Of a DNA stretch of 64,000 nucleotides, positions 7,601 to 44,282 are shown piece by piece. Made by a program: the position numbers and the translations under genes. A model generated the notes under the pieces. That model ran no database searches. It had not been told where the DNA came from and saw only the letters and a program-made list of their open reading frames with translations. The stretch is from Fibrobacter sp. UWR2 (lineage in GTDB: Bacteria > Fibrobacterota > Fibrobacteria > Fibrobacterales > Fibrobacteraceae), in assembly GCF_002210285.1 (NCBI RefSeq), contig NZ_MWQE01000006.1, positions 62,001 to 126,000 on the forward strand, written 5' to 3'. Positions within the stretch are counted from its first letter, which is position 1; each line of letters starts with the position of its first letter.

Positions 7601-7673
7601 CTTCTTCCCGGTGGAGAAGTTCCTTATCGAGCGTGAGATCGTGAAACTCCGCCGCAGTTCTATCCGGAAATAA
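4632..7673 (+). CDS. fused membrane/spermidine-synthase-like protein
   Basis: 1013 residues. Two hydrophobic blocks (about 1-215 and 245-470), each with the repeated FAGLIYEGSWAR / TSFIYEIVWIRLL opening and GLAIGS motif of the fused MFS/spermidine synthase family, then a Rossmann methyltransferase-like domain (about 475-720) and a soluble C-terminal region with an Ala-rich linker (about 830-860). The SAM-type loop is G554-F-G-S-G558, followed by an acidic CVEIE strand. At the place where true aminopropyltransferases have the catalytic Asp (D-S/T-D-P), this protein reads SVPSNPW (625-631), so polyamine synthesis is doubtful. It is expressed from its own promoter; there is no Shine-Dalgarno and the message may be leaderless. 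Confidence 0.8.
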   Translation: MNILVYFLFALSGFAGLIYEGSWARYLKLFLGHSSYGQVLTLCIYMGGLAIGSFVAGKMVEKVRRPLLGYAAVELAIGIGGVAYHPLYNLLTGFFFDSEWVAGLGFTGAEVAKVVLATGSTLPIAIAVGMTFPFIAAGLMRKSGAEVSLPMLYFTNSFGSAIGILVTSYMLIPELGNHVTLCVAASINFLLAMVFGFIGFMTSPTREEDEEDLPFVGEGSAEREPLNEDYVAEHKLAMPPKSMWFWIAGITGLTSFIYEIVWIRLLSLLMGSSSHSFDQMLSAFILGLAIGSAVSGKLLKKDSLVVLSMAQILMAFFALCTLYFHKPFWGMMNEANQIFNPTNDGYVCWSLFKYALSVLWMVPTSFFAGMTLPLITIILTRAFRSEAPIGKVYGWNTVGSIIGSAGGGLLLLPLLQLKGALVLAAVLDFAIGFALLVIYRKRFRYSVPFYVICAFMILPSIFIGFDPHLITSGAFRAYKNLHPDEKIIVRDGKTATISFHESEVHYYIKTNGKADASLGKNRENPIEGDELTQAATAFMPMAVKTEPYDAAMVGFGSGMGAHYLLSDPLLKDFDCVEIEQEMMDLAKGFYPWNSRGYDDPRIHIYIDDAQTFFLTNRRQYDLMISVPSNPWVSGVASLFSHEFYTKMRRYIKPGGLWVQWIQTYEFNDQLFLNILKALDVAFPYVSLYKAPEEPDIIIIASDEPVFQKGIGRFSTDPVLVKEFNRIHRDPEFFGEQNFLFTSKMVKSLLDGVAPNSIFTPIVDNKAEEARFVHSQAHIVQVFDSCEVCWPEYLDSTENELRRPFRVKQMMQAGVDPYKKLGLLAYLDRVQAQVDSAVAVNAAKQAQEASRAPADSTADSVAVADTTRPALHFMVAERSPEWVKFRMEYIEWIRGVPMEARDSNEVYNRVRDLVDMGAFPASFTDEFNILEVARVKDYPTASRLVADFYEKYEIKEMDEFFLRNVLLISLLAGEPELANAIYQDAIKNHESFFPVEKFLIEREIVKLRRSSIRK

Positions 7674-7686
7674 GCCAAGGTCATTT

Positions 7687-7725
7687 CGCAGCCCCGTAGG
7701 GGCAAGAGTGTCCACTGGCGTTAAT
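7687..7725. repeat. structured 39-bp repeat, copy 1
   Basis: First of two 39-bp direct repeats 55 bp apart. It contains a perfect hairpin GCCCC-GTA-GGGGC followed by AAG, a second small inverted repeat AGTG-TC-CACT, and GCGTTAAT. Copy 2 differs in the stem by paired changes. Confidence 0.75.
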
Positions 7726-7741
7726 CTCCCTACGTCTCACG

Positions 7742-7780
7742 CGCAGTGCCGTAGGCACAAGAGTGCCCACTAGCGTTAAT
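7742..7780. repeat. structured 39-bp repeat, copy 2
   Basis: Second copy. The hairpin reads GTGCC-GTA-GGCAC: compared with copy 1, two stem positions differ on each arm, and both sides changed so that pairing is kept. The AGTG..CACT and GCGTTAAT parts are conserved. It lies at the end of the barrel gene on the minus strand and of the spermidine-synthase-like gene on the plus strand, with no T-tract, so it is not a typical terminator. Confidence 0.75.
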
Positions 7781-7796
7781 TATCCTGCAAAGCAGT

Positions 7797-8624
7797 TTAG
7801 AACAGGAAGCAGATGCCTACGGAGGCGTAGCTTGTAAGGAAGTTCGAGTCCTTGAAGGAGGCCTCTGCGTTCAGCGTCTGGTTCAGGAGGTTCGTGAACC
7901 CTTGTACCAGGCGGATATTCAACTGTACCCAGCGCGTAAGCATGTAGCCCAGGTCGACCGCCGCACCGAGTTCGAAGCCCGTTGTCGCGATGGTGTTGGA
8001 GCGGGTCTTGTCTTCGCCCAGGTCAAGGTTCTGGTTGAATTCGGAGGAACCGGAGAGCTTGAGGCCGAGGTTCAGGCCGAGGCCTACGAACATGTTGAGG
8101 TCCACAAACGTGTAGCGCACCACGAGCGGGATTTCGAACATCATGATGTCGATGCTGGCATCGTCGTCACCGAAGTCCGTCTCGTTCGCATAGCGGTAAT
8201 GGCGGTACGTGAACACCAGTTCGGGGACCATGTTCAGGTTCTTGACCCCGAGCGGCAGTGTCACCAGAAGGCCGGCGGATCCCTGGAAGCCGAGTCCCCA
8301 TCCCGAGGTCTCGTTGCCGATAAACGTGTTGACGCCGGCGCTAGCGCGAACGCCCAGCAAGATGGAACGCGCGAAACCTTCGGCACGCTGCTTGTTGATC
8401 TCGGCTTTCGAGGTCTTTTCTCTTCTGTATTGTGCATATTCGGCTGCGTATTCCGCGTCGTCGGCGAATTCGCTTGCTGCCGAACCGTCGTACGACTCCG
8501 AACTGCTCCTTTCGGTAGAGGTTGTCGTTTCGTCATTATCGAAATCGTCAAATTCGTCTGCGAGGGAAGGCACAGTTGCGGCGAGCATTGCCGCGGCCAG
8601 GAAAGGTACGATTCTCAGGTTCAT
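7797..8624 (-). CDS. outer-membrane beta-barrel protein, paralogue A
   Basis: 275 residues: signal peptide (residues 1-22, ending SLADE), an acidic Asp/Ser/Thr-rich low-complexity segment (about 23-60), then alternating amphipathic strands (GLGFQGSAGLLVTLP, VPELVFTYRHYRY, FVGLGLNLGLKLSGSSEF, TGFELGAAVDLGYML) ending in aromatic F (GICFLF). This is the pattern of a small OmpW/PorT-like barrel. It shares the 'LGLKLTGSSEF' and 'ELGAxxxxGY' segments with the next minus-strand gene, so the two are tandem paralogues. No Shine-Dalgarno is evident. Function unknown; the barrel placement is firm, the role is not. Confidence 0.75.
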   Translation of the reverse strand: MNLRIVPFLAAAMLAATVPSLADEFDDFDNDETTTSTERSSSESYDGSAASEFADDAEYAAEYAQYRREKTSKAEINKQRAEGFARSILLGVRASAGVNTFIGNETSGWGLGFQGSAGLLVTLPLGVKNLNMVPELVFTYRHYRYANETDFGDDDASIDIMMFEIPLVVRYTFVDLNMFVGLGLNLGLKLSGSSEFNQNLDLGEDKTRSNTIATTGFELGAAVDLGYMLTRWVQLNIRLVQGFTNLLNQTLNAEASFKDSNFLTSYASVGICFLF

Positions 8625-8751
8625 GCTTGAATTATAACAAAAGAAGGTTAAACACCTTCTCTATTATAAATATCTTTGCCGCAAAAAGACAGGGGGCAAA
8701 TTTTTTTTTACCTACGGACGGAACTTTTTATGCCGTTTTTTCGAGTTTTTC

Positions 8752-31209: not shown

Positions 31210-33399
31210 TTACTTGACCTTGATGCTTACGCTCTGGATCTTGCTTCCCTGCTTCACGCGGACAATGTACTTGCCTGCGCTGAGTTCCGACATCGGGATC
31301 CAGTTGCTGCCTGCGCCGAGTTCCGATTGCATGCTCTTCGCAATCTGGCCGAGGGTCGTAATCACCTGGATGGAAGCCTTGCCGCTCTGGCTGGTGGTCA
31401 GGAGCAGCCCGCCGTTCACGAACTTGGCGCTGAATACGTTCTGCGGCTTCTGGAGCATGATCGGCGTGCCGTTGCCGCTACCGATGGTGATAATAATCGT
31501 GGAGTCGATGCCTGCCCATTCATCCGTTTCCTGGGTCGTAGCCCTGATGGTCACGGTGGCGTCCACATCGCCGGCGCAGAGGAATCCGTTGAAGTTGATG
31601 GCGTATGGAGAGACCTCGGCACCGTCAAAGGTGTAGGTGATCGGGGACTTCGCCATAGGAGTCTGTTCGATGAACACGTTCTCGGTGCTAGAACCCTTCT
31701 CGACGGTCATCGACCTGAAGTTCTTGCCCAGTTCGTCCATCATCTTGCCGTATTCGACGGTGATGGTGTCGCTCATGGCGATGTAGCCGGTCGTTGCCGG
31801 TGCGGTCGCTACGATTTTTGCGGTGCCGATTGTACCGGTAAACTGGTACATGTAAACGGTAGCTCCATCAGCCTTGCCGAAGCATGCCGCGGAGTTAGAG
31901 CACTTGGCCTTCTTGATCTTGACGATTTCGGGGTTGAGCGATGTGACCGTGATGGTCGAACCCTGGTCCGTCTGACCAGTTGCAGATACGATAACTTCGT
32001 CCTTGGTGCCGTCCTTGTCCAGGTCTCTCATGCTCTTGCTCTTGGTGCAGGAGCCGCCGATGAAGCACTTGAAGTCTTCGAAGTCGCTGATAGTCTGTCT
32101 CGGTTCGGCGGTCACGGTGATGATGGACTGGGAACCGTCGTTGCCGGTCATGATGACAAAACCCGGGTTCTTGACGGCGCCTGCAGAGGTCACGACGGTT
32201 TCGTCGCTGGAGGTGTAGGTACAGCCGGACTTGAATGCGCTAGAGGCACTGCCTGCGGTTTCCTTGACGGTAGTCGGAGTGAAGGAGCAACTGCCGCTCT
32301 TAAGTGTCGCGGTGAATTGGCTTGTCCAGTCCGTGGCGTTCTTGGTGAGGTAGCTCTTTACAAAGTTGCCCGAAGCAGTGTAGCTTGCGCTAGCGAGCTC
32401 GGACTGCTTGGTGAGGGCCTTGTCGCCGGAGAACAAGGCGGAGCCTTCATCGGAAGCGTTTCCAATCTTGGTCACCTTTTGGCGGAGGCTCCAGTTGCAG
32501 TTGCTAATCTTGTTGCTTTCCATGAAGCTCGTCCATTCGGAGGACGGACCCGTTTGGGCATCGCTCTTACCGTCGGCGGTAGTGGTACCCCATTCGGTAA
32601 TGAATACGGCGTTGCCGCTATTCTTTGCGCTAGTGATTTTAGAACCAAATTGACCGACCGTATGTGTTCCTGCATAGAAGTGGAATACGTAACCAACGTT
32701 TGTTCCGCTTACACCACCATATTGGTCGAGCTGAGACCAGCTAGGTGTGCCGACTAGTACCAGGTTTTGGGACTTTGCGCGAATTCCTGAAATAACGGCG
32801 TTAGCATAGTTCTTAATACTGCCCCAGTCCTGGCCTTGACGGGGTTCGTTAAACACTTCCCAGATGATGTTGGGGACGTTTGCATATTTTGCAGCCATTT
32901 CTGTAAAGAACGGCTTTGCGAGGTCTTGTTCGTAGTCGGCTCTATGACTGTGCCAGTCGATGATGATATAGATGTCGTTTTCAATGGCGGCTTCCACCAT
33001 GATGTCGATCTTGCTCTTCTGCGTGTCAGGGTTACCCTTATAGGAGTAGCCTGCATCGAGCTTGTTGCTTGTACCGCCATCGCTGTCGTAATATTCGATA
33101 CCCATGGCGTAGCGGAACACGTCGATCTTCAGGTTGTCGACGGCCCACTTAATCACTTCCTTGTTGTAGTACTGAATGCCGGTAGCATCGGACCAGAACA
33201 TGCTCATGCCGCGGATCATTGCTTCCTTGCCGCTTTTCTGGCCCACGATCTTGCCGCCGTCAGTTCCTAGGGCGCCGTGGACCTGCACGGGACCTACGCG
33301 GAGGGGTTTGGCCGTGGATGCAGCCGCATTGGCCTCCATCGCGCCCAAGAGGAGCGCGCCTGCGGCCAGTGCCTTTATCGTATTGCTAATCCTAGTCAT
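31210..33399 (-). CDS. secreted GH5 cellulase with accessory domains and C-terminal sorting module
   Basis: 729 residues from ATG 33399, which has GGAGTC 7 bases upstream. Signal peptide 1-25 (ALAAGALLLGAMEANAA), GH5 barrel about 35-315: HGALGTDGGKIV, RYAMG, IIIDWHSH, acid/base Glu185 in EVFNEPRQG, HFYAGTH, nucleophile Glu269 in FITEWGTT. This wording is that of subfamily-2-like endoglucanases. After it come Ser/Thr-rich, strand-rich regions (about 345-640) with CTYTSSDETVVTSAGA-like and Cys-pair repeats, then about 75 residues ending GKYIVRVKQGSKIQSVSIKVK-like, a type IX-like sorting tail. Predicted extracellular or cell-surface cellulase. Transcribed alone. Confidence 0.9.
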   Translation of the reverse strand: MTRISNTIKALAAGALLLGAMEANAAASTAKPLRVGPVQVHGALGTDGGKIVGQKSGKEAMIRGMSMFWSDATGIQYYNKEVIKWAVDNLKIDVFRYAMGIEYYDSDGGTSNKLDAGYSYKGNPDTQKSKIDIMVEAAIENDIYIIIDWHSHRADYEQDLAKPFFTEMAAKYANVPNIIWEVFNEPRQGQDWGSIKNYANAVISGIRAKSQNLVLVGTPSWSQLDQYGGVSGTNVGYVFHFYAGTHTVGQFGSKITSAKNSGNAVFITEWGTTTADGKSDAQTGPSSEWTSFMESNKISNCNWSLRQKVTKIGNASDEGSALFSGDKALTKQSELASASYTASGNFVKSYLTKNATDWTSQFTATLKSGSCSFTPTTVKETAGSASSAFKSGCTYTSSDETVVTSAGAVKNPGFVIMTGNDGSQSIITVTAEPRQTISDFEDFKCFIGGSCTKSKSMRDLDKDGTKDEVIVSATGQTDQGSTITVTSLNPEIVKIKKAKCSNSAACFGKADGATVYMYQFTGTIGTAKIVATAPATTGYIAMSDTITVEYGKMMDELGKNFRSMTVEKGSSTENVFIEQTPMAKSPITYTFDGAEVSPYAINFNGFLCAGDVDATVTIRATTQETDEWAGIDSTIIITIGSGNGTPIMLQKPQNVFSAKFVNGGLLLTTSQSGKASIQVITTLGQIAKSMQSELGAGSNWIPMSELSAGKYIVRVKQGSKIQSVSIKVK

Positions 33400-33781
33400 A
33401 AAAGACTCCTTTATATGCCAAAAAAAATAGATTATGTTCACCCATCCAGGCTGTAAAATATAGTTTCGTTGTTTACTTGTGTATCCGCGAAACTATTCCC
33501 GAATAAAAGATATTTATAGTTCGTAATCTTTCCTTGTAAAGATGTTTTTACAGTGATGCAGGTCGCACGGAATGGAAACCGGCGGTGGAGGTTCGGAACG
33601 GAATGTCCCTATTTTGGGGTGGAGTGGCCTGCTATTGAAAAAGTGTGACGAATCGAACTGTTTTTCGAAAAAAGTGTTTTTTTTACTTTTTGTTCTTGCT
33701 TATCGCGAAAAAAAAGATATATTTGCGTTAAACCATGTCCCCTCCGGGGGGCTTTCACAAATAAAAAAAGAGAGAGATACT
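33400..33781. other. intergenic region between secreted GH5 and the module genes
   Basis: 382 bp. The side next to 33399 carries the GH5 promoter (AT-rich, no clear boxes chosen). The side next to 33782 carries a good promoter (see 33696-33723) and a leader with a GC-rich hairpin CCCC-TCC-GGGG around 33738-33748. No gene seen in the middle. Confidence 0.5.
33696..33723 (+). promoter_or_regulatory. promoter of the first module gene
   Basis: TTGCTT at 33696-33701, a 16-base spacer and TATATT at 33718-33723; with the next two bases the box reads TATATTTG, which also fits the TAnnTTTG form known from Bacteroidota. About 50 bases of leader follow before the ATG. Confidence 0.6.
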
Positions 33782-34705
33782 ATGAACAAGAAAATTACAC
33801 TCGCTGCTCTTGCCGGCGCTGCCATGGCTTTTGCTCAGGGTCCCGTTGATCCGGAGTTCCTTTGGGACGGTGCTACTGACACCCAGGGCCAGGTGATTAC
33901 CGGCTCTACCGAAACCAAGACTTCTGGTTACTGGTACGATTACAACGATAAGAACGACGGTGGTTCTTCTGCCTTCACGTTCCCCGCCGGAATCGAAGCC
34001 AACACCTACGGTAACTTCTACGGCCCGCTCGTTGAAGCCTACTACGGTATCAAGGCTACCATCACGATGGGCGAAGGCTACGACTATCCGTATGCCGGTA
34101 TCGGCTTCAACATTTGGAGCGAAGACCAGGAAGGTGTTGACATTTCCGCATGGGGCGGCATCTGCTTGGCTTACGAATCCACCATCGGTTTCGGCATCGA
34201 ACTCGGTGTTGAAGACGAAAAGAACGTGACTGGCTACGATAACTACAAGGCTACCGTTGCTAAGTCCCCGAGCGCAACTATGGCCAACTTCGCATGGGCC
34301 AAGTTCAGCCAGGGTGAATGGGGTAAGGTCGTCTCTATCGACGACGTCCTCGCCAAGACTGCTGCCATCAAGCTGAAGTTCGAAGGCACCGCTGGTACTT
34401 CCGGTAACTTCCGTATCTGCCAGATCGGTTCTCTCAACAAGTGCACCAAGTGCGAAGCTGAACCGATCGGTGCAATCAAGTCTGTCGCAGCTGCTAGCTC
34501 CGTCAAGGCTCAGCTCTCTGGCCGCGTCCTCTCCTTCCAGGGCATCTCTTCTGCCAAGGCCGAAGTGATCAACCTCCAGGGCCAGGTCGTGAAGTCCGCC
34601 ACTGTTAGCACCTCCATGGACCTCTCCAGCCTCGACGCTGGCATCTACATGGTCCGCGTTGCTGGCAAGAACGTGAACCTCGCTCAGAAGATTGTCCTCA
34701 AGTAA
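33782..34705 (+). CDS. secreted single-module binding protein with C-terminal sorting tail
   Basis: 307 residues from ATG 33782 (GAGAGAG upstream; the frame is open further left but not coding-like). Signal peptide 1-18 (ALAGAAMAFAQ). One jelly-roll-type module (about 19-215) with the landmarks EFLWDGATDTQGQV, TSGYWYDYND, GNFYGPLVEAYYGIKA, YPYAGIGFNIWSEDQEGVD, WAKFSQGEWG and FEGTAGTSGNFRI. Then a Cys-bearing linker (CTKCE) and a sorting tail (about 240-307) ending MVRVAGKNVNLAQKIVLK. Same module occurs once in the next gene and three times in the third. Likely a cellulose or hemicellulose binder at the surface; family not certain (CBM11-like). Confidence 0.8.
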   Translation: MNKKITLAALAGAAMAFAQGPVDPEFLWDGATDTQGQVITGSTETKTSGYWYDYNDKNDGGSSAFTFPAGIEANTYGNFYGPLVEAYYGIKATITMGEGYDYPYAGIGFNIWSEDQEGVDISAWGGICLAYESTIGFGIELGVEDEKNVTGYDNYKATVAKSPSATMANFAWAKFSQGEWGKVVSIDDVLAKTAAIKLKFEGTAGTSGNFRICQIGSLNKCTKCEAEPIGAIKSVAAASSVKAQLSGRVLSFQGISSAKAEVINLQGQVVKSATVSTSMDLSSLDAGIYMVRVAGKNVNLAQKIVLK

Positions 34706-34726
34706 TCTGCTGACTGTAGAAATTCG

Positions 34727-34758
34727 ACACCCTGACCTTCGGGTCGGGGTGTTTTTTT
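34727..34758 (+). terminator. terminator after the first module gene
   Basis: 11-bp stem ACACCCTGACC / GGTCGGGGTGT (one G-T pair) with a TTCG loop, then seven T. Confidence 0.9.
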
Positions 34759-34790
34759 ATGCGAAGGAACAAGGGATTCTGTATAAGGTA

Positions 34791-34819
34791 TTGCATTTGT
34801 AAAACGATGAGTTTATATT
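34791..34819 (+). promoter_or_regulatory. promoter of the second module gene
   Basis: TTGCAT at 34791-34796, a 17-base spacer and TATATT at 34814-34819. ATG at 34859 with GGGAGG 9 bases before it. Confidence 0.65.
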
Positions 34820-34858
34820 CACGTTGAGGTGGTCCACGATTTAGGGAGGAATTCGATC

Positions 34859-35800
34859 ATGAAAAAATGGAATGTGTTTGCAGCTGTCGTTTTTACGGCC
34901 GTGAGCATCTTTGCTCAGGGTCCCGTTGATTCGAAATTCCTTTGGGATGGCGATACTGACACCCTGGGCCAGGTGATCACCGGCTCAACCGAAACCAAGA
35001 CTTCCGGTTACTGGTACGATTTCACCGATAAAGGTGATAGCGGTACCTCTGTTATTACATACCCTGCAGGAATCGAAGCCAACTCCTACGGTAACTTCTA
35101 CGGCCCGCTCGTTGAAGCCTATGGTGGCATCAAGGCTTCCATTACGATGGGCGAAGGCTACGAATATCCGTATGCCGGTATCGGCTTCAACATCTGGAGC
35201 GAAGACCAGGAAGGTGTTGACATTTCCGAGTGGGGTGGCATCTGCTTGGCTTACGAATCCACCATCAGCTTCGGCATCGAACTCGCTGTTGAAAACGAAA
35301 AGACCGTGACTGGCTACGATAACTACAAGGCTACCGTTGTCAAGTACCCGAGTAGCCCTGCTATCAACTACCCATGGTCTAAGTTCAGCCAGGGTGGCTG
35401 GGGTACTGAAGTTCCTATCGATGACGTTCTTGCCAAGACTTATGCCATCAAGCTGAAGTTCGAAGGCACCGCCGGTACTTCTGGTAATTTCCTCATTTGC
35501 CAGATTGGTTCTCTTAACCAGTGTACTAGGTGTAGGCAAATATGTTGCCTTCCTCCTGATACTTCGATTAGCGTTCCGGTCCGGGCGGCCAGTTCCGTCA
35601 AGATGTCGCTTAATGGACGCATGCTCTCTTTTGAAGGGATTGCTCTTGCGAAGGCCGAAGTGGTTGACCTGCAGGGCCGCGTCGTAAAGTCCGCTACAAT
35701 CAGCACTACCATGGATCTTGCTGGCCTCGATGCGGGAATTTACATATTGCGTGTTTCAAGTCACGGGTTTTTGCAGACAAAGAAAATTTTCCTCAAGTGA
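34859..35800 (+). CDS. secreted single-module binding protein, duplicate of the preceding gene
   Basis: 313 residues from ATG 34859 (GGGAGGAATTC upstream). Signal peptide 1-18 (FTAVSIFAQ), one module (about 19-218) nearly identical in landmarks to the gene before it (SKFLWDGDTDTLGQV, NFYGPLVEAYGGIKA, YPYAGIGFNIWSEDQEGVD), then a longer Cys-rich linker (CTRCRQICC) and the same sorting tail ending ILRVSSHGFLQTKKIFLK. Long stretches are also identical in DNA, so the duplication is recent. It has its own promoter and terminator, so expression can differ from the first copy. Confidence 0.8.
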   Translation: MKKWNVFAAVVFTAVSIFAQGPVDSKFLWDGDTDTLGQVITGSTETKTSGYWYDFTDKGDSGTSVITYPAGIEANSYGNFYGPLVEAYGGIKASITMGEGYEYPYAGIGFNIWSEDQEGVDISEWGGICLAYESTISFGIELAVENEKTVTGYDNYKATVVKYPSSPAINYPWSKFSQGGWGTEVPIDDVLAKTYAIKLKFEGTAGTSGNFLICQIGSLNQCTRCRQICCLPPDTSISVPVRAASSVKMSLNGRMLSFEGIALAKAEVVDLQGRVVKSATISTTMDLAGLDAGIYILRVSSHGFLQTKKIFLK

Positions 35801-35821
35801 TTTTCTAGTGGCAATTTTTTG

Positions 35822-35854
35822 ACACCTTGATTTATGAATCAAGGTGTTTTTTTT
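35822..35854 (+). terminator. terminator after the second module gene
   Basis: Perfect 11-bp stem ACACCTTGATT / AATCAAGGTGT with a TATG-type loop and seven or eight T. Confidence 0.9.
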
Positions 35855-35937
35855 GTATGTAAAATAAAATTTCTTTTTAGAACAAACGAATGTATATTAG
35901 AGTTAGGGTTAAACTTTTTTATCAGGGGAGGTTCATT

Positions 35938-38199
35938 ATGAACAAACGAAGTACTCTCGGCATATTAGCCTGTGCAGCGACCGCTGCAATTGCCGCAGGG
36001 AATGTATCCAGTGGTCTTTATTGGAATGGCGCAATCGATACTGATGGTCGTGTCAATACGGGGTCAAATGACTTGACATCCGGTTATTGGTATAACTACA
36101 GCGATGACAATGATGGTGGTACATCTAGATTGGTTTTCCCGGCAGATGTCGAAGCGAATACCTATGGTAATTTCTTCGGGCCGCTTATCGAAGCCTATAG
36201 TGGCATCAAGGCGCACGTTTCGCTCGGTGACGGCTACGATTATCCGTACGCTGGTCTCGGCTTTAACATCTGGAGTGAAAACCAGGAAGGTGTAGATATC
36301 TCTTCTTGGGGTGGCATCGTAATCGGGTATGAATCTAGCCTTGGTTTTAACACCATAATCAGTGTTGAAGACGAAAAGAGCGTGACTGGCTACGATAATT
36401 ACAGGGCGCGCGCACCCAAGGCTCCGAGCGGCAATCAACTGGTACTGCCGTGGTCGGAATTCAAGCAGCAAGGCTGGGGTACTCCGGCTGACCTGAATTA
36501 TGTCCTTACTCGTGCTAACGCTATTAGACTGCAGTTCGAAGGCACTGCAGGTACGAGCGGTGACTTCCGTATAACCAGCATCAGGTCTATCGAGGGTACT
36601 CCCGGTACCCAGATTGTGCCGCCCGATACAGGGGTCGTTCCTCCTGTTATCCCGCCGGTCATTCCGCCTGTATCGCAGTTTGCTTCCGATACGCTCTACT
36701 GGGATGGATCCGTGGATATGGACGGCCGTGTCAATACGGGGTCGGATGATTTGACTGCCGGTTACTGGTACGAGTATACCGATGAAAATGATGCTGGCAC
36801 ATCCAAATTCATATACCCGTCGGATGTCGAAGAAAATGAATACGGTAATTTCTTTGGCCCGCTGGTTGAGGCTTATGGTGGCGTCAAGGCTCATGTTTCG
36901 CTCGGTGATGGTTACGACTATCCGTATGCCGGTGTCGGATTCAATATCTGGAGCGAAAACCAGGAAGGCGTAGATGTCACCTCTTGGGGCGGCATCGTAC
37001 TAGAATACGAGTCTACGAGCTCCTTTACGCTGCAAATTGTGACCGACAACGAAAAGGATCTGGGGTACGACAATTTCAAGGTGTATGTTCCCAAGTCCAC
37101 TACCGTTCGTGAAATTGAATTCCCCTGGTCGGCGTTCAAGCAGAGTGGTTGGGGTGAGGAATTCGATAGGGATTCTGCCCTTGCACGTATTGCCGCTGTC
37201 CGCATTCAGTTTGAAGGCACTGCCGGTATGCAGGCTGATTTCCGTATAACCAAGATCAGGTCGATTACGAGCGGCTCTGGCACGGTTGTTCCGCCCACTC
37301 CGATTGTAACGGAACTTGTATCCAACTCGATCTTCTGGGATGGTGCACAGGACGATATCGGCAGGGTCAGCACGGGTTCGGATGAACTGACTTCCGGTTA
37401 CTGGTACCAGGAAACCGACGAAGACGTGCATGGTCGTTCCAAGTTCGTATGGCCGGCTAATGTCCATGAAGACGAGTACGGTAACTTCTTCGGCCCGCTC
37501 GTCAAGGCTTATAACGGTGTCAAGGGCCGTGTGAAGCTGAAAAATGGTGCTCGCCATCCGTATGCAAGCCTTGGCTTCAACATCTGGAGCGAAGAGCAGG
37601 AAGGCGTTGATGTCTCTGCCTGGGGCGGCCTCGTCATTGAATACGAATCCACTATCGACTTCTCTGTAGAACTCGTGACTGACGACAACAAGAAGGCTCC
37701 CTACTACGGTACCTACGTGGCGTCTGCACCCAAGTCCCGCCACCATGTCCGCCAGCTGGTGATTCCTTGGTCGAAGTTCAAGCGTTCTACGGGTTGGGGC
37801 CTCGCTGTTAACAAGACTTCTGCCCTTAAGCACATTGCAGCAATCAAGTTCAAGTTCGAAGGCCATGCCGGTACTGTCGGTGACTTCCGCATAACCAAGA
37901 TCAGGTCGATCAACAACGGCTATGCAGTTGCCATTAACAAGCCTGAAGCGGTCGAAGTTGCTGCCGTGGAACCGGTGAGCCGTCCGGCGGCAGATGCGAA
38001 GGTGATCCTCTCCGATCGTACGCTCTCGTTCGAGGGAGTCACTTCCGGCAAGGCCCAGGTGGTCAACCTCCGCGGCCAGGTCGTGAAATCCTTCGACGTC
38101 GGCGCTTCGGCGGACCTCTCGAATCTCGATGCCGGTGCCTACATGGTCCGCGTTGTAGGTCAAGGGGTTTCGATGACAAAGAAGATTGTGCTGAAATAA
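35938..38199 (+). CDS. secreted three-module binding protein with C-terminal sorting tail
   Basis: 753 residues from ATG 35938 (GGGGAGG upstream, TATATT at 35893-35898). Signal peptide 1-20. Three copies of the module found singly in the two genes before it, at about 25-220, 247-446 and 459-659, each with YWDG/FWDG, (T/S)GYWY, GNFFGPL, (Y/H)PYA.(L/V)GFNIWSE(N/E)QEGVD and FEG.AG..(A/G)DFRIT. Proline-rich linkers (VPPVIPPVIPPV; VVPPTPIV) separate them. A Val/Ala/Pro linker leads to the sorting tail (686-753) ending MVRVVGQGVSMTKKIVLK. Multivalent binding protein without a catalytic domain, scaffold or adhesin-like by design. Confidence 0.82.
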   Translation: MNKRSTLGILACAATAAIAAGNVSSGLYWNGAIDTDGRVNTGSNDLTSGYWYNYSDDNDGGTSRLVFPADVEANTYGNFFGPLIEAYSGIKAHVSLGDGYDYPYAGLGFNIWSENQEGVDISSWGGIVIGYESSLGFNTIISVEDEKSVTGYDNYRARAPKAPSGNQLVLPWSEFKQQGWGTPADLNYVLTRANAIRLQFEGTAGTSGDFRITSIRSIEGTPGTQIVPPDTGVVPPVIPPVIPPVSQFASDTLYWDGSVDMDGRVNTGSDDLTAGYWYEYTDENDAGTSKFIYPSDVEENEYGNFFGPLVEAYGGVKAHVSLGDGYDYPYAGVGFNIWSENQEGVDVTSWGGIVLEYESTSSFTLQIVTDNEKDLGYDNFKVYVPKSTTVREIEFPWSAFKQSGWGEEFDRDSALARIAAVRIQFEGTAGMQADFRITKIRSITSGSGTVVPPTPIVTELVSNSIFWDGAQDDIGRVSTGSDELTSGYWYQETDEDVHGRSKFVWPANVHEDEYGNFFGPLVKAYNGVKGRVKLKNGARHPYASLGFNIWSEEQEGVDVSAWGGLVIEYESTIDFSVELVTDDNKKAPYYGTYVASAPKSRHHVRQLVIPWSKFKRSTGWGLAVNKTSALKHIAAIKFKFEGHAGTVGDFRITKIRSINNGYAVAINKPEAVEVAAVEPVSRPAADAKVILSDRTLSFEGVTSGKAQVVNLRGQVVKSFDVGASADLSNLDAGAYMVRVVGQGVSMTKKIVLK

Positions 38200-38294: not shown

Positions 38295-38321
38295 ATGGGA
38301 AAAATGACGAGGAATTCTCAG

Positions 38322-39716
38322 ATGAAGAAAAATTGGCTTTTCCCGGCGCTCGCTATCGGCGCCGCCGTGATGCTTTCTGCTTGTGGCGATGATCCTTCTT
38401 CGCCGACTCCTGCTCCAGTTCCCCCGGCAAGTAGCGCCGTTGTTCCTGTGCCTACTTCGTCTGCCGGTGGCAGTGGCACCGTACAGACCCCTTATGGAAC
38501 CCTGCCCACGACGGCGGATCCCAATGCCGCCTACACCTGGTACGGTGTCTGGAAGGGCATCTACTACAAGACTCTCCCGGAAGAGGCTGCGCTTTACCCC
38601 ACGCTCGCGAACGACTGGAATGTCGTTTTCGGCAACTACATCGCTGCCGGCATGTACCCGGCCCGTATCGTTTGGGATACGCAGAACGATTCCTACTGCC
38701 TCATAGACGAGTGCACGAACGGCTACAAGAAGCGCGGATGTACCGTGTCTGAAGGCATCGGCTACGGCATGCTGCTTGCGTTCTTTATGGGCGATATGGA
38801 CGCCCTCAATTCCCTCTGGTACTACAGCAAGGGCTATCGCGAATATCAGGCCGGCCCGAATCTGACTCCGTGGAAGGTGGGGACGTATTCCTATGAATCC
38901 CTCGTGATGCCGTCCAACGCTTCGTCGGCGACGGATGCCGACTTGGACATTGCGACGGCCTTGATTCTCGCCTATTACAAGACGGGTAACGAGGTGTACC
39001 TCTCCGATGCCCTCCTGATTGCGGGCTCCATCTGGCAATATGAAATCAGCCCGACGGGATTGATCTATTCCGGCAACATGGCGATGTGGAAAAAGGACGG
39101 GAGCGCGTACAACCCGAGCTATTTCTCACCGATTGCGCTTAGGCTGTTTGCCCTTGTGGACAAGTCTCACGACTGGATGGGCGTGCTCAACACGATGTAC
39201 AACTACATGCTGGGCGTGCAGGCGAAGGGCCCTGGGCTTCTTCCGGACTGGAGCGATGCGAATGGCAACGCTGTTGACCCGAAGAACGGCAGTGCTCCCT
39301 TTACTTACTACAGGTTCTTCCATGAAGCCGTGCGCGTGCCGTGGCGTATTGCATGGGACTACTACTGGACGCAGGACCCGCGTGCTCTGCAATTGCTCAA
39401 GGGCATGAACGACTTCATTGTGGGCAAGACGAATGGCAATCCGGACAACCTCCCGACCACTGCGGGTGCGATGATCTACTCTGCGGTGACGGGCATGCCG
39501 GACAGTACGCTCAAGAGCGCGAACCTGCAGCCGCATTTCCATGGCGCATGGTGCCTCACGGGTATGGGTGTCAACCAGGCTTGGGTGAGTGCTTGTACCC
39601 AGGCGTTCAACCAGAAGACCATCAGCGGGTTCAGCTACTTCCCGCACATCCTCATGACGATGTTTGGCGAACTGCTGAACGGGTACTTCATCAAGCCCGA
39701 ACTGCTCCCGCTGTAA
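38322..39716 (+). CDS. GH8 family endoglucanase-like lipoprotein
   Basis: 464 residues from ATG 38322. Lipobox LSAC with Cys21, then a Pro/Ser/Val linker (24-55) and a GH8 (alpha/alpha)6 barrel: acid Glu144 in VSEGIGYGMLLAF, the SATDADLDIATAL signature (202-214), LLPDWSDANG and FTYYRFFHEAVRVPWRIAWDY. GH8 enzymes cut beta-1,4-glucans with inversion; BcsZ of bacterial cellulose synthase operons belongs here. Two genes downstream is a GH5-GT2 fusion with a cellulose-synthase-like domain, so a role in glucan synthesis is as likely as plant cellulose digestion. Has its own terminator. Confidence 0.88.
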   Translation: MKKNWLFPALAIGAAVMLSACGDDPSSPTPAPVPPASSAVVPVPTSSAGGSGTVQTPYGTLPTTADPNAAYTWYGVWKGIYYKTLPEEAALYPTLANDWNVVFGNYIAAGMYPARIVWDTQNDSYCLIDECTNGYKKRGCTVSEGIGYGMLLAFFMGDMDALNSLWYYSKGYREYQAGPNLTPWKVGTYSYESLVMPSNASSATDADLDIATALILAYYKTGNEVYLSDALLIAGSIWQYEISPTGLIYSGNMAMWKKDGSAYNPSYFSPIALRLFALVDKSHDWMGVLNTMYNYMLGVQAKGPGLLPDWSDANGNAVDPKNGSAPFTYYRFFHEAVRVPWRIAWDYYWTQDPRALQLLKGMNDFIVGKTNGNPDNLPTTAGAMIYSAVTGMPDSTLKSANLQPHFHGAWCLTGMGVNQAWVSACTQAFNQKTISGFSYFPHILMTMFGELLNGYFIKPELLPL

Positions 39717-39738
39717 CGGTCGGCTTTCATAGGCATTT

Positions 39739-39767
39739 AACGCTCCGCAACCTTGCGGGGCGTTTTT
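39739..39767 (+). terminator. terminator after the GH8 gene
   Basis: 10-bp stem AACGCTCCGC / GCGGGGCGTT (one T-G pair) with a 6-base loop and seven T. Separates GH8 from the next gene at the transcript level. Confidence 0.88.
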
Positions 39768-39783
39768 TTGTAGATTTGCATGT

Positions 39784-40671
39784 ATGGAAAATGATTCTTT
39801 GAATACGGAAACCGTGTTGAACGATTCTGCAAGCGCTGTGCCGGATGGTGCGGCGAACATGCCGGATAGTGCTGCGCCGGCGATGAACATGCCTACGCCC
39901 GAGCAGTTGGGCATTACGGTGAAGGCCGGGCCCGAGGGCGGCATGCCCACGGTTACGGTGGGCGATACGTTTGAATTTCCGGTTACGGTGAGCTGGAGCG
40001 TGCAGGGTAGCGCCCTCTTGGTGGTGCCCGCAGGCTCCGCGAACGCGAAGGGCCTTACGCAGGTGGCCATGTCGCAGGAGTCGGCGCGGTCCGTGAAGGA
40101 CGGCGCCGAGGTGGCCTCGATTACCTTTACGTACAAGATCCTGGCGGCCGATACGGGCAATTTGCATATTCCTGCCATGCGGTTCGAGATTCCGACGCAA
40201 ATGGGGCAACCGCTCGATTTGCGGAGCGAGAGCGTGGATGTGCGCGTGAACGAGCCCTTTAACCCGCTCCCGCTCGTGGTGGGCCTGGTGGTGGCTGTCT
40301 GCGTGCTCTGTGCGGGCCTGTGGCGTGCCAAAAGGCGTGCTGCGGCGAAGGCGGCTGTTGCCGCAAGGAATGCCGCACAAGATGCCCTGCGCGAAAAGAT
40401 GATGGTCCTGAAGCAGCGCGTGAATACGGCCGATAGTCGCGAGTGGCTGCTGGAACTGGAAGGCGTCTGCAAGGAATTTGTCGCGGAAAAGTTCGGGATT
40501 TCCGCGGTCAACCTGGAAACTCTGGTAAAGGACGGCAAGCTCGAGGGCTGGGAAGGCCTCGTGGAGGAATTCGCGCATGCCCGCTATGGCGGCGGCAAGC
40601 GCGACGGCTTCGAGAACAGGGAAACTTGGAAAACCGCCGTGAAACTTATGGGAATCTCGGAAGAAGATTAG
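39784..40671 (+). CDS. BatD-like membrane protein
   Basis: 295 residues. An acidic, Ala/Met/Pro-rich N-terminus without a clear signal peptide, a beta-sandwich-like domain (about 42-158: TVKAGPEGG...VTVGDTFEFPVTVSW... FTYKILAADTGNLHIPAM), one transmembrane segment (about 163-183) and a cytoplasmic helical tail with VCKEFVAEKFGIS. The layout resembles shortened BatD / oxygen-tolerance proteins, which work with MoxR ATPases. A TAGATTTG box (39771-39778) lies only 6 bases before the ATG and there is no Shine-Dalgarno, so the transcript may be leaderless. The next gene starts 34 bp on. Confidence 0.6.
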   Translation: MENDSLNTETVLNDSASAVPDGAANMPDSAAPAMNMPTPEQLGITVKAGPEGGMPTVTVGDTFEFPVTVSWSVQGSALLVVPAGSANAKGLTQVAMSQESARSVKDGAEVASITFTYKILAADTGNLHIPAMRFEIPTQMGQPLDLRSESVDVRVNEPFNPLPLVVGLVVAVCVLCAGLWRAKRRAAAKAAVAARNAAQDALREKMMVLKQRVNTADSREWLLELEGVCKEFVAEKFGISAVNLETLVKDGKLEGWEGLVEEFAHARYGGGKRDGFENRETWKTAVKLMGISEED

Positions 40672-40705
40672 GTTTTGGCGTCTGTAGATTTCATATCTTT
40701 CAGAT

Positions 40706-43700
40706 ATGGCCTCTTCAAAATCCCTTGTTGCTTTTTTAGCCCTGTTCCTGGTGCTTTCGTCCTTTGCGTTTGCGGGGAACCCGGTCGCTCGCCCCTCGAC
40801 GAGCGGCAAGTTGCATGTAGTGGGCACGGAACTCTACGACGAGAACGGTAAACTCGTGATGCTCCGCGGGCCGAGTACGCATGGCCTCACGTGGTACCCG
40901 CAGTATGTGAACAAGAAGCTTTTCCACCAGCTGAGTACGGAATGGAATACGAACTTGATAAGGCTTGCGATGTATTCCGACGACTACGTGAACGGCGACC
41001 GCGAAAAGAACCTGGAAATCTTGCGCAGGGGTGTGGAGTACGCGATTGCAAGCGACATGTACGTGATGGTGGACTGGCATATCCTTACGGACAACAACCC
41101 TAACGAGAATTTGGCCGAGGCGATTGCGTTTTTTAACCAGATGGCAAAGGAATATGCGGATATCCCGAACGTGATTTTTGAAATCTGCAACGAGCCCAAC
41201 GGCGACTGTACCTGGGAAGACATCAAGGAATATTCGAACATCATCATTCCCGTTATCCGCAGGCACAAGCCCGATGCGTTAATCCTTATCGGCACGCCGA
41301 ATTATGACCGTGAAATTCAGTTCCCGGCGAAGGACCCGGTGGAGTTTGAGAACGTGATGTACTCGTTCCATTTCTATGCGACCTCGCATAAGGAAGATTA
41401 CCGCGCGAAGTTGCGAGAAGTCGTCGGGAGCGGCACTCCGATTTTTATTACCGAAAGCGGCCTCTGCGAAGCCTCGGGCGACGGCAAGATTGATTTCGAG
41501 AGCGTGAAAATCTGGTACGCGCTGCTCGATTCGCTCCACCTGAGTTATACCATTTGGAGCCTCTCGAACAAGGAGGAAGAATCCGCGATGGTGAAGGACG
41601 ATTCGCCGGCGGAAGAATTCCTGACGGACGAAGACCTCACGCTTTCGGGCCAGTTCGCGAAGCATATCTTCCAGGGCAAGGACATTGCAGAAATCTCGCT
41701 TGTCTATACGCCTGCGACGGACTTCAAGATTATCGCCCGCAGCAGGCCGTACATTGCCTGGTGCATATTTGCGGCCCCGGTATTTGTTTTGCTGTTTATC
41801 ATATTCGCGGTGCAGAAGATCAAGAAGCGGCTCAAGCAGAAGCATATCCGGACATACGACCAACTTCTCCAATACAGTAACAGGGAAGAGGCCGGAAGGT
41901 TCAATTCTAGGCCGGGCCAGGTCATTTTCGGCGACTTGCTTTTGTTCCTGAGTGCGTTCGCGACCCTGATATACCTCTGCTGGCGTGTGACCTGCTCCAT
42001 CCCGTATGCTTACGGCTGGATTGCGGTGGCCGGGAGCATTGTTTTGCTGGTGGTCGAAATTTTCGGGTTTGTCGAATCGCTCATTCACAATAGTGCCATC
42101 CTCAAGTTGCGTGAACATCCGCTCCCGCATATCGAGGATGCGGACTTCCCGGACGTGGACGTGTTCGTATCGACCTACAACGAGCCAACGGAACTTTTGC
42201 GCAAGACTCTTGTCGGCTGCAAGCACATGGATTACCCGGACAAGTCGAAGGTGCATATCTACCTGTGCGATGACCATCGCCGGCCTGAGATGCGTGCGCT
42301 GGCCGAGGAACTTGGCGTGAACTATTTCGACAGGCCCGACAACGAGGGAGCGAAGGCGGGCAACCTGAATGCGGCGCTGGCCCGCAGCAGTTCGCCCTAC
42401 GTGGTCACTTTCGATGCCGACATGATTCCGCAGCGCAAGTTCTTGCTCAAGACCATCCCGTATTTTGTGGATGCGGAACGCATCAATGCGACCCTGCCCG
42501 AAGAACGCCGCCGCCCGCTCGGTTTTATCCAGACTCCGCAGAGTTTCTACACGCCCGATGTGTTCCAGCATAACCTCTATGCCGAAAAGAACGTCCCCAA
42601 TGAGCAGGATTATTTTTACGACGTAATCGAGGCCGCGAAGACCTCTACCAACAGCGTCATCTACGGCGGTTCCAATACGGTCATTTCGCGCAAGGCGCTC
42701 GAGGCGATTGGCGGTTTTTACACGAAATCCATTACCGAGGATTTTGCGACGGGTATGCTGATAGAATCGGCAGGCTTCGTGAGCCTCGGGCTTTCGGAAC
42801 CGCTCGCTTCGGGCATCGCGCCTTCGTCTTTCCGCGAACACGTGCAGCAGCGCACCCGCTGGGGCCGCGGCGTGATTGCGACGGCGAAGCAGTTGAAGTT
42901 CCTGCGCAACCGCAAGCTGAACCTTTCGCAAAAGCTGAGCTACCTGAATTCGGTTGTCTACTGGTTCTCTCCGGTCAAGAATTTGGTCTATCTCGTTTCA
43001 CCGCTGATGTTCGCTGTTTTCTGCATCCCGATTTTCAAGTGCACGCTGATTGACTTGGCTCTTTTCTGGCTGCCGATGCACTTGCTGCAGATGGTCGCCC
43101 TCAGGGTAAGCAGCCAGGGCAAAATATGTGCCCGCTGGAGCGGCATTTACGAGACCTCGGTCATGCCGTTCCTGCTCTTGCCCATTGTCAAGGAATCCCT
43201 GGGTATATCGCTCTCTACGTTCAAGGTGACCAGGAAGGACAAGCCCGGCGCAAAGAGGAGTATCGACAAACGGAGCCTTGTGCCGTTCATCATTCTGCTC
43301 TCGCTTACCCTTGCCGGCCTTGTCCGCATGACGTATATGCTCACCGTGCTGGAATATGTCGGCGTGCTCGCGGTGATGTTCTGGCTGTTGCGCAATGCGT
43401 ACTACCTGACGATGTGCCTGTTCCTCGGGCTCGGCCGCGATACCGATGGCGAAAACGTCAAGGTGTTCGCCGCCGAAAATATAGCGCTCACGAAAAATGA
43501 CGGGCAACGTTTCGAGGGAATTACGACCAAGTTAACGGAACATTCCGTCGACATCTTTACCGACGAGATGGATGTCCTCTATCTGGGTGAAGCCGCCCGG
43601 CTCGAGATAGTCAAGAAACATTACCGTTTGGAACTCAGGGGAACTGTAGTCTCTATCCGTCATTCGTGCAGCGAGAATGTCCCGAGCGTGTACACGTTCG

Positions 43701-43846
43701 AGATCCTGGACTTCGGCGAGAATAGGGACGAATACATCCAGATGCTCTACGACCGCACACCTACCTTGCCGCAGCGCTTGCGCCTGGGCGACGGCTATAT
43801 CAGGAACTTCTGGAAGAATTTCAGTCAGCGCATCGCTGTGAAGTAG
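40706..43846 (+). CDS. GH5 endoglucanase fused to a GT2 cellulose-synthase-like glycosyltransferase
   Basis: 1046 residues. Signal peptide 1-23 (FLVLSSFAFAG), an exported GH5 domain (about 30-325) with Glu163 in FEICNEPNG and Glu250 in PIFITESGL, a membrane segment (349-370), two more at about 408-455, and a cytoplasmic GT2 domain with all processive-synthase landmarks: VFVSTYNEP, D522-D523, D570-A-D572, T-E678-D679 and Q715-R-T-R-W719. Further membrane segments follow (about 750-925). The C-terminal 100 residues sit where BcsA has PilZ, but lack the RxxxR and D-x-S-x-x-G c-di-GMP motifs. It is like a cellulose synthase carrying its own glucanase, analogous in design to GH17-GT2 proteins. Product unknown. 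Confidence 0.88.
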   Translation: MASSKSLVAFLALFLVLSSFAFAGNPVARPSTSGKLHVVGTELYDENGKLVMLRGPSTHGLTWYPQYVNKKLFHQLSTEWNTNLIRLAMYSDDYVNGDREKNLEILRRGVEYAIASDMYVMVDWHILTDNNPNENLAEAIAFFNQMAKEYADIPNVIFEICNEPNGDCTWEDIKEYSNIIIPVIRRHKPDALILIGTPNYDREIQFPAKDPVEFENVMYSFHFYATSHKEDYRAKLREVVGSGTPIFITESGLCEASGDGKIDFESVKIWYALLDSLHLSYTIWSLSNKEEESAMVKDDSPAEEFLTDEDLTLSGQFAKHIFQGKDIAEISLVYTPATDFKIIARSRPYIAWCIFAAPVFVLLFIIFAVQKIKKRLKQKHIRTYDQLLQYSNREEAGRFNSRPGQVIFGDLLLFLSAFATLIYLCWRVTCSIPYAYGWIAVAGSIVLLVVEIFGFVESLIHNSAILKLREHPLPHIEDADFPDVDVFVSTYNEPTELLRKTLVGCKHMDYPDKSKVHIYLCDDHRRPEMRALAEELGVNYFDRPDNEGAKAGNLNAALARSSSPYVVTFDADMIPQRKFLLKTIPYFVDAERINATLPEERRRPLGFIQTPQSFYTPDVFQHNLYAEKNVPNEQDYFYDVIEAAKTSTNSVIYGGSNTVISRKALEAIGGFYTKSITEDFATGMLIESAGFVSLGLSEPLASGIAPSSFREHVQQRTRWGRGVIATAKQLKFLRNRKLNLSQKLSYLNSVVYWFSPVKNLVYLVSPLMFAVFCIPIFKCTLIDLALFWLPMHLLQMVALRVSSQGKICARWSGIYETSVMPFLLLPIVKESLGISLSTFKVTRKDKPGAKRSIDKRSLVPFIILLSLTLAGLVRMTYMLTVLEYVGVLAVMFWLLRNAYYLTMCLFLGLGRDTDGENVKVFAAENIALTKNDGQRFEGITTKLTEHSVDIFTDEMDVLYLGEAARLEIVKKHYRLELRGTVVSIRHSCSENVPSVYTFEILDFGENRDEYIQMLYDRTPTLPQRLRLGDGYIRNFWKNFSQRIAVK

Positions 43847-43850
43847 GTGT

Positions 43851-44282
43851 ATGAAGATTGTCCGAGTAACGAGGGAAAGTGAACGCGCGGGAGCGTACTA
43901 CGTGCGCATCCAGGCGATGATGCGCAAGCACCAGATTCCGCTTGATGCCGAAATCGATTCGCGTGACGGCGCGGACTGCCATTACGTTCTGGCGCTGGAC
44001 GACATTTACCCGGTGGCCACCTGCCGCTGGTTTGAAGTTCGTGAGGGCGTTGCCGAAATCGGGCGCGTCGTGGTGCTGCCGGAATACCGCGGGCAGCACT
44101 TGGGCCGGGCCGTCGTCGCCGAGGCCGAAAAGTGGATGCGCGAGGCCGGCTTCAGGAAGGTCGAGATTTCGAGCCGCGTGAACGTCGCGGACTTCTACGA
44201 AAAAATGGGCTACCGCTTCAACGAAAACGGTAAAGCCCATCATGACACGTTCGAGTGCGTGTACATGGAAAAGGTTCTGTAA
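43851..44282 (+). CDS. GNAT family N-acetyltransferase
   Basis: 143 residues, the usual size. Motif A reads GRVVVLPEYRGQHLGRAVV (about 73-91) with the R-G-x-x-L-G acetyl-CoA loop, and the C-terminal FYEKMGYRF segment supplies the usual Tyr. Substrate unknown. It starts 4 bp after the GH5-GT2 stop, so it is probably translated from the same message, and its stop is 3 bp from the convergent Dcu gene. Confidence 0.88.
   Translation: MKIVRVTRESERAGAYYVRIQAMMRKHQIPLDAEIDSRDGADCHYVLALDDIYPVATCRWFEVREGVAEIGRVVVLPEYRGQHLGRAVVAEAEKWMREAGFRKVEISSRVNVADFYEKMGYRFNENGKAHHDTFECVYMEKVL

Follow-up and report, generated by a model that had tools for sequence, protein, structure and literature searches.

A predicted clostridial-type beta-1,4-glucan synthase of Fibrobacter, fused to a GH5_2 endoglucanase and lacking the c-di-GMP motifs of PilZ

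What does a protein make when it carries a glucan synthase and a glucan-cleaving enzyme in one polypeptide, and how is it controlled? The question is raised by an open reading frame in Fibrobacter sp. UWR2, in a stretch of 64,000 nucleotides of contig NZ_MWQE01000006.1 that was analysed as a whole (the window). The frame (40706-43846, forward strand) starts with ATG and encodes 1046 amino acids, arranged as a hydrophobic leader, a GH5_2-type endoglucanase, a membrane anchor, a GT2 domain of the BcsA/CcsA type and a degenerate PilZ domain. We propose that this protein is a clostridial-type beta-1,4-glucan synthase whose product would be trimmed by its own GH5_2 domain and which would not be under c-di-GMP control through PilZ. 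The probability of this reading is estimated at roughly two in three.

An endoglucanase and a synthase in one conserved frame

The features of the locus are as follows, with the support for each in parentheses.

40706..43846, +: GH5-TM-GT2-degenerate PilZ fusion gene (Pfam and NCBIfam matches; single frame kept in three phyla)
40706..40774, +: putative signal peptide or N-terminal hydrophobic helix, aa 1-23 (sequence; model helix 2-21)
40838..41572, +: GH5 (GH5_2-type) endoglucanase domain, aa 45-289 (PF00150, E 1.1e-56; TM-score of the model to Bacillus Cel5A-type structures 0.93-0.95)
41747..41815, +: membrane anchor between GH5 and GT2, aa 348-370 (hydrophobic stretch; model helix 348-377)
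41936..43375, +: BcsA/CcsA-type GT2 core and translocation channel, aa 411-890 (NCBIfam CelA, E 7e-109; BcsA structures 4p00, 4hg6 and 9b8v; motifs)
43433..43750, +: degenerate PilZ-like domain, aa 910-1015 (GRDxDxE for RxxxR and TTxLxEH for DxSxxG; profile comparison and model)
40672..43850, +: inserted segment (BatD-like stop to GNAT start only about 8-16 bp in relatives)
38295..39716, +: GH8 lipoprotein gene, outside the system (PF01270, E 4.5e-26; beside BatD in genomes without a fusion here)
39784..40671, +: BatD-like gene that bounds the insertion site on the left, outside the system (PF13584; 79 of 80 genomes of the genus have it)
43851..44282, +: GNAT acetyltransferase gene that bounds the insertion site on the right, outside the system (PF00583; directly behind BatD in relatives)

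The GT2 domain (Pfam match at residues 482-722) contains all the motifs of a processive enzyme, DD, DxD, TED, QxxRW and FxVTxK. Those listed in an earlier reading made from the sequence only were found where it had placed them (D522-D523; DAD, 570-572; TED, 677-679; QRTRW, 715-719), and the gating-loop motif FxVTxK is at residue 839. The NCBIfam CelA model spans residues 411-972; its score of 365 bits is below the cut-off of 699 for the BcsA equivalog (TIGR03030). The GH5 domain is closest in both sequence and fold to GH5_2 endoglucanases and has its catalytic residues. Among solved structures, GH5_2-type endoglucanases (6gjf, 4xzw, 3pzt and 1a3h) come closest to the first half of the protein and the BcsA proteins of E. 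coli and R. sphaeroides to the second. The structure of C. difficile CcsZ, which we take to be 6uje/6ujf, is a distant match to the fused GH5 (31 bits), which is of the GH5_2 type.

An AlphaFold2 model of the fused protein, for which 24 locus sequences were used (mean pLDDT 79, pTM 0.62), predicted a TIM barrel, a long anchor helix at residues 348-377, glycosyltransferase and membrane parts like those of BcsA, and a C-terminal domain rich in strands at residues 919-1002. In Foldseek comparisons the GH5 part superimposed on Bacillus Cel5A with TM-scores of 0.93-0.95 (target length), and an alignment of 726 columns covered the 728 residues of BcsA in 4p00 with a TM-score of 0.67 on BcsA length. 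Since the pTM is 0.62, the position of GH5 relative to the channel is unsure in the model.

The GH5-TM-GT2 order was searched for across Fibrobacterota. Among 168 genomes of the phylum, the full-length fused protein is confined to the genus of the window, where 23 of 80 genomes have the gene; it is uninterrupted in 21, interrupted in one (G135) and split over contigs in another (G065). Full-length homologues at 49-79% identity occur in three phyla, which excludes a chance effect. They include proteins of rumen Treponema at 68-69% identity (intact in C6A8, interrupted in JC4 and RUI115) and of Butyrivibrio and other Lachnospiraceae at about 50%, several of them intact. The genome G060 has, besides a full copy, a second and truncated one (L128, C2:96390-97631; aa 633-1046) with 75% identity to the window protein. 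Plasmids gave only matches of less than 60% identity that covered at most about 60% of the fused protein; among the matches listed, this was its GT2 part.

The residues R86, H125, E163, H222, E250 and W284 of the GH5 domain are invariant in 17 fused sequences, in agreement with the sequence-only reading of an intact GH5 with Glu163 and Glu250. The dN/dS ratios, given where dS could be estimated since dS is saturated in distant pairs, were about 0.04-0.11 for GH5, 0.04-0.08 for GT2 and 0.11-0.14 for the PilZ-like part. Both catalytic domains, whose catalytic motifs do not vary among the fused proteins, are thus maintained by purifying selection. These data also bear on whether the gene might be an artefact or a frameshifted join of two genes. 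Interrupted copies do exist (L018, L023, L093 and L017), but the single frame in 21 Fibrobacter genomes, the intact copies in Treponema C6A8 and Lachnospiraceae and the selection on both domains indicate a genuine fusion. This conservation refutes the artefact, to which we assign a negligible probability.

The fused gene of the window lies exactly between the stop of the BatD-like gene and the start of the GNAT gene, as a clean insertion. In relatives (L142-L148, L150 and L154) only about 8-16 bp separate the BatD-like gene from the GNAT gene behind it, and a GH8 gene lies upstream; two genomes (G131 and G136) keep GH8 and BatD as an intact pair and carry the fusion on a different contig. Comparison of these loci shows that the fused gene was inserted into an older GH8-BatD-GNAT arrangement. 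The sequence-only reading had noted a GH8 gene 1.1 kb upstream. The gene is indeed present; 0.99 kb separates it from the fusion, and the BatD-like gene lies in this space. Because GH8-BatD-GNAT is kept in genomes without the fusion, and no GH8 neighbour was found beside the other fused copies among the loci examined, the GH8 gene is an old neighbour and not a partner.

Farther upstream, the window contains three adjacent, related genes (33572-38199), 49-73% alike, for secreted proteins that have sorting tails and CIA30/CBM11-like domains; the third has three CIA30-type stretches. They were considered as a stand-in for CcsB, a subunit of the Ccs system described below, and rejected since no homologue lies beside other fused copies. 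The reverse strand at 31210-33441 encodes a secreted GH5 cellulase that bears a sorting tail at its C-terminus; it belongs to the Fibrobacter GH5 clade and is only 31% like the fused GH5.

A single origin and movement between phyla

In a GT2 tree, constructed without C. difficile CcsA and without the Romboutsia sequence, the fused proteins formed one clade (support 100/100). Its sister is the CcsA of locus L081 (100/97), deep within CcsA-type proteins of Lachnospiraceae. The fused domains also formed one clade in the GH5 tree (support 99), next to GH5_2 enzymes of Lachnospiraceae and GH5 of ccs operons and far from the Fibrobacter cellulases; row L017 of that tree, displayed as Lachno, is an interrupted Fibrobacter fusion. 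The fusion arose once, and most simply in Lachnospiraceae, since the fused proteins are single clades nested there in both trees. The same trees rule out a Bcs derivative of the Fibrobacter lineage. They indicate instead that the gene is a clostridial-type ccsA joined to a Lachnospiraceae-type GH5_2, and that Fibrobacter and Treponema received it by horizontal transfer as a single gene. The trees disagree on the direction of transfer between these two genera.

The unfused GT2 relatives (35-46% identity) are found in Clostridia, in operons of the order VTC, DUF4956, CotH and CcsA with MBOAT, DHHW-type and often GH5 genes. These operons are related to the ccsZABHI system (Scott et al. 2020, PMC7710045), which likewise has a GT2-PilZ synthase and a GH5 endoglucanase, there as separate genes of one operon. 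The fused protein differs in being one polypeptide, in having lost the c-di-GMP motifs and in its neighbours. Fused genes stand alone at differing sites, with no adjacent ccsB, MBOAT (ccsH), DHHW (ccsI) or separate ccsZ. By descent the protein is of the CcsA lineage, yet it is no standard Ccs system. In the scenario we propose, a Lachnospiraceae ccsA and a Lachnospiraceae GH5_2 gene would have fused once, leaving the other ccs subunits behind, and the product would have moved into Fibrobacter and Treponema.

Several features of the clostridial loci were recorded in addition. The ccs operons (L025-L029 and L080-L094) often start with VTC, DUF4956 and CotH kinase genes, which are unnamed in ccsZABHI, and in L026 a GGDEF gene is directly behind the GH5 gene. 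The 534-aa gene that precedes CcsA was considered as CcsB; Pfam gives CotH for it. In L091 (G621; 5846-8719) a separate GH5 gene lies 30 bp upstream of a GT2 gene without PilZ, with no other ccs genes, and the GT2 gene is followed by one for a 1628-aa leucine-rich-repeat protein of the BspA type. This pair was considered as a pre-fusion intermediate and set aside as a separate case, as both halves branch elsewhere in the GT2 and GH5 trees.

The PilZ-like domain and c-di-GMP

Whether the synthase responds to c-di-GMP was approached by aligning 25 fused proteins with 25 unfused clostridial ones. RxxxR and [DN]xSxxG are both lost in all 25 fused proteins, which have GRDxDxE-type and TTxLxEH-type sequences where these motifs stood, whereas both are kept in 24 of the 25 unfused CcsA proteins (as RKTER and DISETG, for example). 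The exception is the protein of L091, in which the PilZ domain is missing altogether. The alignment confirms the earlier statement that the C-terminal segment is without RxxxR and DxSxxG. Profile comparison and structure prediction refined it, as the segment does have a PilZ fold. The fused C-terminus matched the motif-bearing PilZ of its unfused sisters with an hhalign probability of 99.8 (E 1e-30), and Pfam recognised PilZ in 11 of 11 unfused proteins and weakly in 5 of 13 fused ones. A profile search of the C-terminus against the PDB gave no significant match, and the isolated domain, folded without an alignment, reached a pLDDT of only 35. Taken together, the profiles and the full-length model indicate that the C-terminus is a PilZ by descent that has kept its fold and has lost its motifs.

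The host genome encodes 13 GGDEF proteins, so c-di-GMP is very probably made there. In R. sphaeroides BcsA, the R580A substitution results in a constitutively active enzyme (PMC5567048), and the fused family naturally lacks the arginine equivalent to R580. Judging from these sequences, the synthase is most likely not controlled by c-di-GMP through PilZ. Loss of the motifs is no proof of this, because BgsA binds c-di-GMP although it is without PilZ motifs (PMC5567048). Moreover, the gating logic of BcsA may not carry over, since clostridial CcsA proteins do not conserve E371, the residue that completes the salt bridge in BcsA. We infer on good grounds that the protein is regulated differently from Bcs; with a PilZ fold that has no c-di-GMP site, its activity would be set by expression or by another signal.

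Such a signal could act on the domain itself. The TTxLxEH segment (window 43517-43546, aa about 938-947) does not vary among the 13 aligned fused proteins, and a degenerate PilZ that retained its fold might have been re-purposed through it as a sensor of another ligand or partner. The catalytic domains evolve more slowly than the PilZ-like domain, however, and structural constraint alone could hold the invariant residues. We therefore regard re-purposing as rather unlikely.

Product, trimming and relation to known synthases

BcsA-type GT2 enzymes extrude beta-1,4-glucan. By analogy, the fused GT2 would polymerise UDP-glucose in the cytoplasm and push the chain through its own membrane channel, and the N-terminal GH5_2, held by its tether next to the channel exit on the outer side of the inner membrane, would cleave the emerging chain. 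The GH5_2 would thus take the job of a separate BcsZ or CcsZ, and the glucans would come out short or would not jam. Secretion depends on BcsZ being active as a cellulase, and BcsZ can be exchanged for unrelated cellulases (PMC11379886). That the protein trims its own product, as the sequence-only reading proposed, is in our view a well-founded inference.

The GH5 could also have a different use. E. coli BcsZ has been proposed to act by clearing jammed or stray chains (PMC11379886), and the fused GH5 might do only this, with long cellulose for surface adhesion or biofilm as the product. However, neither a BcsB homologue (PF03170) nor a BcsC C-domain was matched in the genome. Long chains would then accumulate in the periplasm of a diderm, and the tether sets the cutter 1:1 with the synthase. 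We consider this alternative improbable, though less so than re-purposing of PilZ. The lack of these matches leaves outer-membrane export without an explanation and favours short or periplasmic products in diderm hosts.

GH5_2 enzymes can also cleave mixed-linkage glucan, and GH5 cellulases of this kind often can, so the product is not fixed by the GH5 domain. A mixed-linkage (1,3;1,4)-beta-glucan, lichenan-like and trimmed by GH5, is conceivable because a characterised Gram-positive relative, RiGT2 (Cgs) of Romboutsia ilealis, makes such a glucan (PMC10374906). RiGT2 shares with the fused protein a Clostridia-type GT2 and a PilZ fold; it requires its PilZ domain and works in yeast without BcsB and without c-di-GMP. 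It differs, by its description, in having kept the PilZ motifs and in the absence of a GH fusion. The closest unfused relatives of the fused GT2, on the other hand, are in ccs-type operons with MBOAT and DHHW genes, which are proposed to make acetylated cellulose (PMC7710045). A mixed-linkage product therefore seems doubtful, and beta-1,4-glucan is the linkage we favour.

Compared with Bcs (BcsA-BcsB-BcsZ-BcsC), the fused protein shares the GT2 core, the channel, the gating-loop motif, the position of PilZ and an associated cellulase; it differs in that this cellulase is GH5 instead of GH8 and covalently joined, that RxxxR and DxSxxG are absent, and that BcsB and BcsC have no match. GH17-GT2 fusions of the NdvB type also carry an N-terminal extracytoplasmic glycoside hydrolase on a processive GT2, but GH17 acts on beta-1,3 glucan and the GT2 is of a different lineage.

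The same order of endoglucanase, TM, GT2 and PilZ, with GH8 instead of GH5, was found in two Fibrobacterota genomes of another family (L126:3819-7235 in G015 and L127:3166-6594 in G020). These proteins of 1138-1142 aa are 61% identical to each other, have intact c-di-GMP motifs and are directly followed by a gene for an outer-membrane protein with TPR and BCSC_C; no BcsB gene was seen in the flanks read. The two genes appear to form a compact cellulose-secretion system. The GT2 of the GH8 fusion falls in the outgroup part of the GT2 tree, in a clade separate from that of the GH5 fusion. At least two independent endoglucanase-synthase fusions thus support a working relation of the two activities. 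In the open-licence papers searched, with CAZy outside the search, no description of GH5-GT2 or GH8-GT2 synthase fusions was found, and the term cellulose synthase is absent from the genome and expression papers of F. succinogenes S85.

The gene could, tentatively, be a single-gene maker of short cello-oligosaccharides, independent of c-di-GMP, which would polymerise beta-1,4-glucan and cut it at once on the outer side of the inner membrane. With it, cellulose-degrading gut bacteria would make and release cellodextrins, or else a periplasmic cello-glucan; we would not rate this stronger claim as likely. Fibrobacter makes and loses cellodextrins (PMC4432691, citing Wells 1995), and that review calls their synthesis intracellular. 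A link between the fused gene, which is patchy in the genus, and this loss is possible. If true, a maker of short cello-oligosaccharides has passed from phylum to phylum in the rumen and might be one of the sources of the cellodextrin efflux of Fibrobacter, and the gene may offer a one-gene tool for producing such oligosaccharides.

The retention of a cellulase beside cellulose synthases is a recognised puzzle, and with a natural 1:1 covalent fusion it can be tested in a single protein. The family is also a natural case of synthases without the c-di-GMP switch that their sisters have kept, and of a polysaccharide synthase that has moved as a single gene among Bacillota, Spirochaetota and Fibrobacterota of the gut.
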